DNA of 50,617 nt. It comes from Candidatus Woesearchaeota archaeon. GTDB taxonomy: Archaea > Nanobdellota > Nanobdellia > Woesearchaeales > WJKR01. The stretch covers positions 1 to 50,617 of the forward strand of contig JAFGNA010000021.1 of assembly GCA_016927245.1 (NCBI GenBank), in the 5' to 3' direction. Numbering within the stretch: the first letter of the stretch is position 1; the number at the start of each line of letters is the position of its first letter. Shown one piece after another: positions 22,331 through 30,100 of the stretch. The notes below the pieces were generated by a model. The model made no database searches. It was not told the origin of the DNA and worked only from the letters and a program-made list of their open reading frames with translations. A program made the position numbers and the translations under genes.

Positions 22331-24690
<2,360 letters not shown>

Positions 24691-24783
24691 TCTCGTCCCC
24701 AAGCCAAGAAGGTTTATAAATCTTCTGCCGGGGCAAGCCAACCACACTATTTATAAGTGACCGTGTCCTTCTCGACAGCCACC

Positions 24784-26145
24784 ATGGTCCTGGACAAGCT
24801 CGGCAGCAGCCTGAAGAGCACGCTCCAAAAAATCACGAGGGCGCTGTTCGTGGACGAGAAGCTCATCAACGAGCTAGCAAAGGACATCCAACGATCATTA
24901 CTGCAAGCGGACGTCTCCGTCAAGCTCGTGTTCGAAGTCACCAAGCGCATCAAGGAACGGGCGTTGCAGGAGAAGGAAGCAAAAGGCCTGGACAAGAAAG
25001 AGCAGCTCATCACCATCGTCTACGAAGAGCTCACCAAGTTCATCGGCGGCGATGAAGAACCATTCAGCATCCCGAAGAAGAAGCCGTTCACCATCATGCT
25101 CGTCGGCCTGTTCGGCAACGGCAAGACCACCACGGCCGGCAAATTAGCGAACTATTACAAGAAGCGCGGCTCGAAAGTGGCCGTCATCCAAACAGACACG
25201 TGGCGGCCCGCGGCGCACGAGCAGCTGCAGACGCTGGCGAAGCAAGCGAGCGTGGACTTCTACGGCAAGGAAGATGAGAAGGACCCTGTGAAGATATACG
25301 ACGAGCACAAGCAATCATTGCACGGGTACGACCTCGTCATCGTCGACACCGCGGGCAGGGACGCACTCTCACAAGACCTCGTCAAGGAGCTCGAACGCAT
25401 CAGCAAAGCGGTGCGAGCAGATGAGCGCTGGCTCGTCATGGCAGCGGACGTCGGCCAAGCCGCGCAGCAACAAGCGCAGCAGTTCCACGACACGGCAGAA
25501 GTCACAGGCGTCATCATCTCCAAACTGGACGGCACGGCAAAAGGAGGAGGCGCGCTCAGCGCGTGCGCCGTCACCGGCGCGCCCGTCAGGTTCATCGGCG
25601 TCGGCGAGAAGATGGACGAGTTCGAGCTGTTCAGCCCGAAAGGATTCGTAGGACGATTACTGGGCATGGGCGACCTCGAAGCATTGCTGGACAAGGCGCA
25701 AGCCGCCATCTCAGAAGAGGAAGCGCAAGACCTCGGCCGCAAATTCCTCAAAGGAGAGTTCAACCTCATCGACCTGTACGAGCAGATGCAAGCCATGAAG
25801 AAGATGGGACCCCTGAACAAGATAGTAGAGATGGTCCCAGGGTTCAGCCAGCTCAAGATGCCCAAGGAGGCATTGAAAGTGCAAGAAGGAAAGCTCGAGC
25901 TCTGGAGAGTCCTCATGGACAGCATGACCAAAGAGGAATTGGAAGACCCCGACACCATCCGCGGCAGCAGGCTCGAACGCATCAGCAAGGGAAGCGGCAT
26001 CCCCGCCTCTGAGCTGAGAGGCCTGCTCAAGCAGTACAAGCAGTCGAAGAAGCTGATGAAGATGATGAAAGGAGGATCGGAGAAGGACATGCAGAAGCTC
26101 ATGCAGCGCATGGGCGGCAAAGGCATGAGCGGGATGAAGTTCTGA
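24784..26145 (+). CDS. srp54: Signal recognition particle protein SRP54
   Basis: MVLDKLGSSLKSTLQKI; GLFGNGKTTTAGKLANYYKKRG; DTAGRDALSQDLVKEL; M-domain Met-rich C-terminus. Confidence 0.96.
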   Translation: MVLDKLGSSLKSTLQKITRALFVDEKLINELAKDIQRSLLQADVSVKLVFEVTKRIKERALQEKEAKGLDKKEQLITIVYEELTKFIGGDEEPFSIPKKKPFTIMLVGLFGNGKTTTAGKLANYYKKRGSKVAVIQTDTWRPAAHEQLQTLAKQASVDFYGKEDEKDPVKIYDEHKQSLHGYDLVIVDTAGRDALSQDLVKELERISKAVRADERWLVMAADVGQAAQQQAQQFHDTAEVTGVIISKLDGTAKGGGALSACAVTGAPVRFIGVGEKMDEFELFSPKGFVGRLLGMGDLEALLDKAQAAISEEEAQDLGRKFLKGEFNLIDLYEQMQAMKKMGPLNKIVEMVPGFSQLKMPKEALKVQEGKLELWRVLMDSMTKEELEDPDTIRGSRLERISKGSGIPASELRGLLKQYKQSKKLMKMMKGGSEKDMQKLMQRMGGKGMSGMKF

Positions 26146-26692: not shown

Positions 26693-26947
26693 ATGCGCGT
26701 CCCCAAGAAGAAGGTGTACGGCCAATCCAAGACTGAACGCTGCCCCTTGTGCGGCGACCGGGCGCTCATCAAGAACCCGCAAGGCATCCCTGTCTGCAAC
26801 GACCACAAAGACTTCATCATCGAGCTGGTATGCAGCTGCGGCGGACCATTGGAACCGAAGCAAGGGAAATGGGGCGTCTTCTTCGTCTGCGAACGCTGCG
26901 GCCCGATCTCATGGAGCAAGGCCATGGCCATGAACGACCTCGGCTAA
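26693..26947 (+). CDS. Small zinc-ribbon protein
   Basis: CPLCGDRALI, CNDH, CSCGG, CERCG. Confidence 0.7.
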   Translation: MRVPKKKVYGQSKTERCPLCGDRALIKNPQGIPVCNDHKDFIIELVCSCGGPLEPKQGKWGVFFVCERCGPISWSKAMAMNDLG

Positions 26948-27012
26948 AGAGAAATATTTATATAATCCTTGTGCAGGAAAGGCAAAGGGAGTATCGATTT
27001 CGAGGTGGTTTC

Positions 27013-27921
27013 ATGAAGGGAGAAGGCAACACGAGAAAAGCGGAGATGGGCATCGGGACCCTCATCATCTTCATCGCATTGCTGCTCGTCGCGGCGGTAG
27101 CGGCCGGGGTCCTCATCCAGACTGCCGGCAGCTTGCAGGAACGGGCGCTGACGACGGGCGACCAGGCGAAAGGACAGATCAGCACGAACGTCAAGGTCGT
27201 CGAGGTCAGCGGCAGTAACGGCCAGGACGGAGACCTCGAGGAGTTCGAGCAGATCGTCAAGCTCAGCCCGGGCAGCAGTGACATCAAGCTCGAGCAGGTC
27301 TTGCTCACCATGAACACCTATGACCGGACAGCGACGCTCACCTATAGGGGCACGGACGGGACGTACGAGAACGACTACACCAACGGGTTCTACACCCTAG
27401 GCCTCGAGGTGTTGGGGAACATCACCACCACCCCCGCTAACCTCTCAGAGGACTACGACCTCGACGGCATCGCAGACCAGGTCTCCATCGACGGCAACGG
27501 CAACCTACTCTTCGAGTTCAGCGGCGGGGAGAACTACACCCTGACCGAGGAGAACTGCACGGGCGCTGAGCACGACGTCACCACCTCGGTCGTGGCGGTG
27601 AGCAACTACATCGAGGCCATCATCCTCGAGGGGACGTGCGGCGGCGACGAAGCCAACACGCAGAACATCACCATCACCGTGACGCCCGTCGACCTCGGCG
27701 TCGGCCACTTCACCGTGGAGTACCTCCAAAGAGGCACCAACCCCGTGGACGGCAACCTCCAGATAGGGGACGTCATCAAGCTGTACTACGAGGCGCCTCG
27801 GGAAGTAGGAGAGGATGAAGAGGTCAGGCTGAACTTCATCCCGAAGATAGGCACGCCCACACTGACCCAGTTCATCACCCCTGAAGTGATCAGCACGGAG
27901 CGCGTGTACCTCTACCCCTGA
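27013..27921 (+). CDS. Archaellin (flagellin)-like protein
   Basis: MKGEGNTRKAEMGIGTLIIFIALLLVAAVAAGVLIQTAGSLQERA; several N-x-S/T sequons. Confidence 0.88.
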   Translation: MKGEGNTRKAEMGIGTLIIFIALLLVAAVAAGVLIQTAGSLQERALTTGDQAKGQISTNVKVVEVSGSNGQDGDLEEFEQIVKLSPGSSDIKLEQVLLTMNTYDRTATLTYRGTDGTYENDYTNGFYTLGLEVLGNITTTPANLSEDYDLDGIADQVSIDGNGNLLFEFSGGENYTLTEENCTGAEHDVTTSVVAVSNYIEAIILEGTCGGDEANTQNITITVTPVDLGVGHFTVEYLQRGTNPVDGNLQIGDVIKLYYEAPREVGEDEEVRLNFIPKIGTPTLTQFITPEVISTERVYLYP

Positions 27922-27982: not shown

Positions 27983-30100
27983 ATGTGCGGCATCCTCGGA
28001 CTCTGGAACACTAGCGGCAAAGACGTCAGGGCGGCGATGAGCCTCCTCCAAGCCAGGGGTAACGACGGCGCAGGGTGGACCGACGGAGAGGAAGTGCAGC
28101 ACGCACAGGAAGCCAGCAAGCTCACGCTCACCACGACCGGGATGGGCCACACCCTCCACGCCATCGTCGACCACCAACCGCAACCCATCAAGAAGGAAGG
28201 GGTGCTGGTCGCGAACTGCGAAATCTACAACTGGCGAGCCCTCGCCGAGAAGCACCACGTCAAGGCGGAGAACGACGCCGCCCTGCTGTGCGCCCTCCTC
28301 GACAAGATAGAACTCGTGAAGGAAAGCGTCCACGCGCTGCTCGAAGAGCTCGACGGCGTCTACGCCTTCGCGTACCGGCGCGAAGGCCGTTCAGTCATCG
28401 CCCGAGACCTCCTCGGCGTCAAGCCGCTGTGGTACACGCACCAAGACGGCTTCTCGTACGCCTCTGAGCGGAAAGCGCTCCTCGCGCTCGGCCACCACGA
28501 CGTCAACGAGCTCGACCCACGCACCATCCTGCACTACGATGAGGAGAAGAACCGGCTGCGACGATGGCGACGACCGTTCTACGACGTCACCGTCACGGAA
28601 GACGACGAGGCGTCCCTCGCGACGAGGACGAAAGCGCTCCTTGTCGAGGCGATACGGAAACGCGTCCCGGACCGGAACATACAGGCAGGCATCCTCTTCT
28701 CAGGGGGCATCGACAGCACCATCATCGCGAAGACGTGCAAGGACCTCGGAGTCAAGGCGACGTGCTACACCGCCGTCGCTGAGAACCCGCGCGGCAAGGA
28801 GCCCCACGACCTCGTCACGGCCAAGGAGGTAGCGGCCAAGCACCGCTTCAAGCACGAGGTGGTACGCGTCGACGAAAGCAACATCCCCCAACTCGCCGAG
28901 GAGACAGCGAATCTCATCGAGGAGGCGCACGCAGTCAAGGTGGCCGTGGGCATGCCCTTCCTCGCGGCCGCGAAACAAGCGCGGAAGGATGGGTGCAAGG
29001 TCTTGTTCAGCGGCCTGGGAGCGGAGGAGCTATACGCGGGTTACCAACGGCACAAGCACGCGCAGGACGTGAACGACGAGTGCTACGCCGGCCTGCTCTG
29101 GCTGTACGAACGAGACCTGTACCGTGACGACGTCATCACCATGCGCAACGGCCTCGAGCTCCGCCTCCCCTTCCTCGACAAGGAGTTGACGAAACAAGCC
29201 CTTACCATACCCGGGTCGTTGAAGCTCAAGGACGGCAAGGAGAAATACTTGCTCAGGAAAGCGGCGCTGCTCCTCGGCATCGACGAGCAAGACGCGTTCC
29301 GACCAAAGAAGGCAGCGCAGTACGGGAGCGGGTTCGACCGGGCGCTAGAAAGAGTCGCCCGAAGCAAGGGAGAGAGCCGGTCGCAGTACCTGCGCGCAGC
29401 GCTCCCGAACGCGAACAGGAAGCTCGGCATCTTGTGCTCCGGTGGCAAGGACTCCTGGTACGCCGCGTACGTCACGAAACGGCTGAACTACGACCTGGCC
29501 TGCGTCATGACCATGAGGAGCGAGAACCAAGACAGCTACCTGTTCCACACGCCAGCGGTGGAGCTCGTGAAACTGCAGGCACGGGCTGCGGAGCTGCCCT
29601 ACCTCGAGCAATCCACAAAAGGCGAGAAGGAAGAAGAGCTGGAAGACCTCAAGGCACTCTTACAGAAGGCGAAGGAAGAGCACCAGGTAGAAGGCGTCGT
29701 GACCGGCGCGCTGCGCAGCCAGTACCAGCGGAGCAGGTTCGAGCAGGCATGCGACGAGCTCGGCCTCAAGGCGTACGCGCCGCTCTGGCACCTCGAGCAG
29801 GAGTCGGAATTGCGGGAGTTGCTCCGTGAGGGTTTTGTCGTCACGATGAGCTCTATCGCCGGCGAGGGGTTGTCCGAGGAGTGGCTCGGAAGAGCTATCG
29901 GTGAGAAAGAAGTAGAGGTGCTTGTCAGGCTCCGCGATAAGATAGGCTTCAACGTGGCTGGCGAAGGGGGAGAATACGAATCATTAGTATTGGACTGCCC
30001 GTTATTCAAAAAAAGGCTGATGATCCAGGCCAAGAGGGAGATGGAGAACAGCATCACCGGCAGAATCACGGTGACGAAGGCGTTCCTGGCGGAGAAATGA
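27983..30100 (+). CDS. Fusion: asparagine synthetase (glutamine-hydrolysing type) + Dph6-like diphthine-ammonia ligase
   Basis: N-terminal MCGILGLWN Ntn amidotransferase, FSGGIDSTIIA PP-loop; from about 29417 LGILCSGGKDSWYAAY...GALRSQYQRSRFEQACDELGLKAYAPLW...GEGGEYESLVLDCPLF. Confidence 0.92.
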   Translation: MCGILGLWNTSGKDVRAAMSLLQARGNDGAGWTDGEEVQHAQEASKLTLTTTGMGHTLHAIVDHQPQPIKKEGVLVANCEIYNWRALAEKHHVKAENDAALLCALLDKIELVKESVHALLEELDGVYAFAYRREGRSVIARDLLGVKPLWYTHQDGFSYASERKALLALGHHDVNELDPRTILHYDEEKNRLRRWRRPFYDVTVTEDDEASLATRTKALLVEAIRKRVPDRNIQAGILFSGGIDSTIIAKTCKDLGVKATCYTAVAENPRGKEPHDLVTAKEVAAKHRFKHEVVRVDESNIPQLAEETANLIEEAHAVKVAVGMPFLAAAKQARKDGCKVLFSGLGAEELYAGYQRHKHAQDVNDECYAGLLWLYERDLYRDDVITMRNGLELRLPFLDKELTKQALTIPGSLKLKDGKEKYLLRKAALLLGIDEQDAFRPKKAAQYGSGFDRALERVARSKGESRSQYLRAALPNANRKLGILCSGGKDSWYAAYVTKRLNYDLACVMTMRSENQDSYLFHTPAVELVKLQARAAELPYLEQSTKGEKEEELEDLKALLQKAKEEHQVEGVVTGALRSQYQRSRFEQACDELGLKAYAPLWHLEQESELRELLREGFVVTMSSIAGEGLSEEWLGRAIGEKEVEVLVRLRDKIGFNVAGEGGEYESLVLDCPLFKKRLMIQAKREMENSITGRITVTKAFLAEK

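Follow-up and report, generated by a model that had tools for sequence, protein, structure and literature searches.

Fusions of an AsnB-type domain to DUF71 were described by de Crecy-Lagard et al. in 2012 (PMC3541065) from Methanohalophilus mahii, Methanosalsum zhilinae and Nanosalinarum and it was proposed that ammonia from the glutaminase serves both Dph6 and the AsnB-like domain. L. Aravind, in the reviews printed with that paper, asked about the function of the AsnB-like domain and about which of the PP-loops uses the ammonia. No treatment of the AsnB-Dph6 fusion later than that paper was found in the literature searched. A first-pass annotation of the DNA analysed here, from a Candidatus Woesearchaeota archaeon, knew of no characterised enzyme with such an architecture, which holds for the biochemistry, but both the architecture and the ammonia proposal had been published in 2012. 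The gene is read here, with a probability of roughly 0.55, as encoding a putative glutamine-fed diphthamide synthetase with a diverged ATP-binding partner domain, PP1, that would have become dedicated to working with Dph6.

The window, i.e. the whole stretch of 50,617 nucleotides that was analysed, carries the gene at 27983..30100 on the + strand. Translation gave an open reading frame from the ATG at 27983 to the stop at 30100 with 705 codons and zero internal stops, encoding three complete domains in one frame: a class-II glutaminase (GAT), the AsnB-type PP-loop domain PP1 and Dph6. The single 705-aa ORF of the first-pass annotation was confirmed, and every motif quoted there was located in the translation: MCGILG at residues 1-6, FSGGIDST at 239-246, CSGGKDSW at 485-492, SQYQRSRFEQACDELGL at 579-595 and GEGGEYESLVLD at 660-671. 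Pfam placed GATase_7 at residues 63-168 (E 1e-16), Asn_synthase at 217-360 and over one further stretch (E 5.8e-43) and Diphthami_syn_2 at 482-700 (E 2.3e-58). An AlphaFold2 model of the fusion, made from 64 aligned sequences, was a single compact body (mean pLDDT 93.1, pTM 0.90), and in Foldseek searches its front part matched AsnB/ASNS and its rear matched PF0828/PH1257. An archaellin-type gene (PF01917; window 26749-27921) lies immediately upstream on the same strand, and a complete DNA gyrase B gene (22331-24247) adjoins SRP54 (24757-26145), the host being archaeal. Neighbours conserved around the fusion gene were mostly housekeeping genes and no diphthamide link was found among them.

A scan of GTDB genomes recovered the same layout in 80 further archaeal loci at 38-71% identity, all full-length with GAT, PP1 and Dph6 in one frame. 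The hosts were chiefly Woesearchaeota and other Nanoarchaeota MAGs, along with Methanosarcinaceae (several Methanolobus), Diapherotrites, Nanohaloarchaea and one Altiarchaeota MAG; the closest named relatives of the window genome were Woesearchaeota MAGs. The recurrence of the three-domain ORF in 80 independent relatives rules out a frame error, a chance joining or an assembly artefact. A caveat that applies to all of the genome counts is that they are constrained by the incompleteness of MAGs and by relatedness among genomes. Two loci that may belong to the same genome (L012:16-3150 and L227:16-3150) had a 1045-aa frame in which a DRG/Rbg-like GTPase, recognised by eye, continued into GAT-PP1-Dph6, the N-terminal Cys of the GAT being absent. 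Another genome (G042; C5, C50, C54) had, besides a triple fusion, a Dph6 and a PP1 that are each encoded separately, reflecting either redundancy or a mixed bin.

The Dph6 domain occupies residues 480-705 (29420..30097, + strand). The fusion scored 249.2 bits against the Dph6_archaeal model TIGR03679 (NCBIfam), over the cut-off of 197.3, and Foldseek matched the domain to PF0828 (3rk1) with a TM of 0.94 over the target, with PH1257 also close. The second PP-loop, SGGKDS (residues 486-491; 29438..29455, +), is conserved in the relatives and EGGEYE (residues 661-666; 29963..29980, +) is conserved in 86 triple fusions; EGG(D/E)xE has been named as a Dph6 motif (PMC3585130). The Dph6 assignment made at first pass is thus upheld by the score, by both motifs and by the PF0828 match, and the Dph6 reading is well supported, with amidation predicted from family membership and the complete motifs. 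A search of the window genome, 1.11 Mb in size and with a listed completeness of 100%, found no Dph6 other than the fusion protein. The pathway check set beforehand (dph2, dph5 and the diphthamide His of EF2) found all three: Dph5 is present, the diphthamide loop of EF2 is LHEDAIHRGPAQ with the diphthamide His, and Dph2 is divided between two ORFs that are not linked (C13:43774-44376 and C17:31352-31597). Dph2 was split in nearly all of the relatives examined, as has been reported for Woesearchaeota (PMC6349945, citing Narrowe 2018).

The GAT (residues 1-203; 27983..28591, +; Pfam GATase_7/GATase_6) has features both typical and atypical of a class-II (Ntn) amidotransferase. Cys2, the nucleophile (27986-27988, +), was present in 80/81 relatives, and Asn78, Glu80 and Asp98 are also conserved among the fusions. 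Leu58-His59 (28154..28159, +), invariant among the fusions, stand in the place of Arg50 of E. coli AsnB (Met counted), which binds the glutamine carboxylate. Canonical AsnBs carry Arg at this position, whereas the fusions have Leu58, and the Gly of the NGE motif, which with Asn78 would make up the oxyanion pair of a class-II amidotransferase, is replaced by Cys79; both replacements are essentially invariant in the fusions, while AsnBs from related genomes retain the Arg and the Gly. The glutaminase site is, on this residue pattern, itself unusual, and glutamine may therefore not be the substrate of the GAT. The suggestion made at first pass, that the fused glutaminase supplies ammonia, gains from the conserved Cys2 and its companions and loses from Leu58 and Cys79. 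It also gains from a parallel in genome G031 (L173:1619-3415), in which Dph6 carries an in-frame class-I glutaminase at its C-terminus (PF00117; GICAGMQ, FHPE). No earlier description of such a fusion was found in the literature searched, and this one case in one genome, a glutaminase of unrelated fold joined to Dph6, would be convergent support for glutamine feeding.

PP1 (residues 206-474; 28598..29404, +; Pfam Asn_synthase), a diverged AsnB-type PP-loop ATP pyrophosphatase, is a family separate from asparagine synthetase, with which it still shares its fold and ATP-binding loop. Its PP-loop, SGGIDS (residues 240-245; 28700..28717, +), is found unchanged in 85/85 triple fusions and throughout the GAT-less PP1 proteins. 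The family signature AAQYGS (residues 444-449; 29312..29329, +), which follows a conserved Lys442, is kept in all groups of PP1 and is missing from AsnB. In a tree made by a quick method, with many weak forks, PP1 fell on the opposite side of a branch with support 99 from the 5 AsnB rows included. When 61 genomes of the order were searched with Pfam, AsnB-like ORFs of ~300 aa turned up in genomes without the fusion; in these stand-alone PP1 ORFs AAQYGS is invariant, and a profile for PP1 gave GAT-less ORFs of this length 186-320 bits vs 68-146 bits for true AsnBs. Four residues, Lys319, Tyr380, Glu392 and Arg394, hardly vary among proteins that have a GAT and are missing from many GAT-less PP1 proteins; communication between PP1 and the GAT would be expected to leave such a pattern. 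SGGxDS, Arg356, Arg381, Asp382, Lys414, Lys421, Arg425, Lys442 and AAQYGS, on the other hand, are retained in all or nearly all members, GAT-less ones included, and thus the PP1 site is independent of the glutaminase.

It was observed, as a new result, that PP1 is tied to Dph6 even where there is no glutaminase at all. The 61 genomes of the order comprised 30 with the triple fusion (four of them, G019, G022, G034 and G035, inferred because contig ends truncate the genes), 4 with GAT-PP1 and a separate Dph6, 20 with PP1 alone and a separate Dph6, 4 with Dph6 without PP1 and 3 with neither. In a sample of 377 genomes of the phylum, PP1 was fused to Dph6 without a GAT in 13 genomes (L188-L198, L220, L223; frames of 477-532 aa around Dph6, no GAT within the stretch retrieved). 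Where PP1 and dph6 were unfused and both could be placed, 10/30 pairs lay within about 1 kb, six of the 10 directly adjacent in the same direction, two divergent and two with a gap. The binomial for this proximity assumed a chance of 4 in 1000, and the excess is large whatever reasonable chance figure is assumed. Dph6 occurred without a clear PP1 in 121/377 genomes and PP1 without a detected Dph6 in at least 6 of the same sample, so neither strictly requires the other. Strict phylogenetic coupling of the two was considered and set aside: the raw association (p about 1e-5) is not relied on, being inflated by fused genes, scoring as PP1-negative seven unlisted Dph6-negative genomes and ignoring relatedness. 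In the tree, PP1 alone and PP1-Dph6, the two forms that have no GAT, made up one group of 45 with support 88, one stand-alone PP1 call outside it (L109) having a degenerate GAT that went unscored, and about 12 changes of architecture are needed on the PP1 tree. On the simplest reading of this history, the three domains would have been fused early, one branch would afterwards have lost its GAT, and PP1 and Dph6 would repeatedly have come apart or joined again. In genome G031 a PP1 was also found in frame with the DNA-binding domain of an O6-methylguanine methyltransferase (PF01035; L172:2331-3608).

The association of PP1 with Dph6 is itself established by comparative genomics; the function proposed for the fusion extends it to a mechanism. 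The gene would be the organism's only diphthamide synthetase. Judged by its family and motifs, the Dph6 domain would use ATP to activate the carboxylate of diphthine on EF2 for amidation, the N-terminal glutaminase would release the ammonia for this step within the same polypeptide, and PP1 would probably dock the glutaminase, relay the ammonia and bind or use ATP in the same process. A bolder reading, tentative and with the odds somewhat against it, is that PP1 is an unrecognised second ATP-using component of diphthamide synthesis in DPANN and Methanosarcinaceae, either an AsnB-derived enzyme or an ammonia relay. If true, PP1 would act with Dph6 whether fused or in trans and the glutaminase would be optional.

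The alternative that survives best, though unlikely, is that PP1 is an independent ATP-dependent ligase using the GAT on another translation-related substrate, with Dph6 fused to it for co-regulation and drawing on free ammonium. Such a ligase would explain why the whole ATP site and AAQYGS are retained when PP1 is separate from Dph6 and why the residues co-conserved with the GAT sit in PP1, and it would fit the few genomes with PP1 that have no detected Dph6 as well as the commonness of Dph6 without a fused glutaminase. It does not account for the repeated fusion and co-location of PP1 with dph6 specifically, nor for the independent Dph6-class-I glutaminase fusion.

Less probable again is the reading of 2012, that GAT and PP1 form a working, diverged asparagine synthetase joined to Dph6, with one glutaminase feeding both PP-loops. 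The resemblance of the PP1 fold to AsnB speaks for it, as do the Ntn Cys2 and SGGxDS PP-loop that the fusion shares with AsnB and the retention of the catalytic Lys position (Lys442). So does the distribution of other enzymes: a search of the window genome found no AsnB-type protein besides the fusion and no GatB over the cut-off, only a GatE-like match (C16:27416-27955), and in two Methanolobus and Nanohaloarchaea SG9 the fusion was the only strong AsnB-type protein besides short PP-loop matches. However, the fusion scored 224.1 bits against the AsnB model TIGR01536 (NCBIfam), below the cut-off of 267.1. Where the SGEGSDE loop of E. coli has its acidic residue (Glu349 of AsnB), 77/81 fusions had Leu or Ser (Leu345 in the window protein), whereas the acidic position of SG(E/D)G(S/G/A)DE was Asp or Glu in 20/23 AsnBs; true AsnBs of related genomes retain it. 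In AsnB this residue is important to the synthetase reaction. Two alignments disagreed on the place of the counterpart of E. coli AsnB Arg325 (Arg326 with Met), and no weight is put on it. The AAQYGS site persists in GAT-less PP1, and the fusion and true AsnBs coexist in some genomes. A role in supplying asparagine in place of tRNA-dependent GatCAB was rejected, the fusion being no commoner where GatB is missing (GatB present in 19/30 fused vs 15/31 unfused genomes, p 0.31). With a score below the cut-off, hallmark residues lost, a clade of its own and GAT-less members partnering Dph6, the first-pass naming of the middle domain as asparagine synthetase is not supported and PP1 is probably not an asparagine synthetase. 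A last alternative, in which PP1 would be an ATP-bound pseudo-enzyme with a structural or regulatory role, doing no more than bridge glutaminase and Dph6, would suit the loss of the AsnB-specific acidic residue and would give PP1 a purely scaffolding role in the GAT-less fusions, but is highly improbable given the invariance or near invariance, even in GAT-less stand-alone PP1, of the PP-loop, Arg381, Asp382, Lys414, Lys421, Arg425, Lys442 and AAQYGS, which exceeds the needs of a scaffold.

The name 'asparagine synthase' given to members of the PP1 family in DPANN genomes is probably an error, with consequences for the amino-acid auxotrophies predicted for these organisms. The PP1-Dph6 fusions, the adjacent PP1 and dph6 genes and the Dph6-class-I glutaminase make the question of the AsnB-like domain testable with small soluble proteins.

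Comparison with known systems places the fusion among several partial parallels. Its C-terminal domain matches the archaeal Dph6 proteins PF0828 and PH1257 (PDB 3rk1, 2d13) in fold and motifs, although these are stand-alone proteins of about 230 aa. With asparagine synthetase B (E. coli 1ct9, human ASNS 6gq3) it shares the GAT and PP-loop fold, Cys2, SGGxDS and the Lys of the catalytic region, but the fusion family is without the acidic residue of SGEG and the glutamine-carboxylate Arg, has AAQYGS instead and includes GAT-less members. Beta-lactam and carbapenam synthetases (1mbz, 1q19) are relatives of the AsnB fold that acquired another amide-forming reaction; they are, however, enzymes of secondary metabolism unconnected to Dph6. 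In yeast Dph6 (YLR143W), as in the fusion, a Dph6 domain is joined to domains thought relevant to ammonia supply, but these are C-terminal RidA-type domains in place of GAT and PP1. The closest parallel is provided by the AsnB-DUF71 fusions (PMC3541065), which have the same domain order and for which the same feeding of Dph6 by the glutaminase was proposed, so that as proteins they differ from the window fusion only in lineage; the middle domain, treated there as AsnB, is here shown to form a family of its own that also occurs without the GAT.
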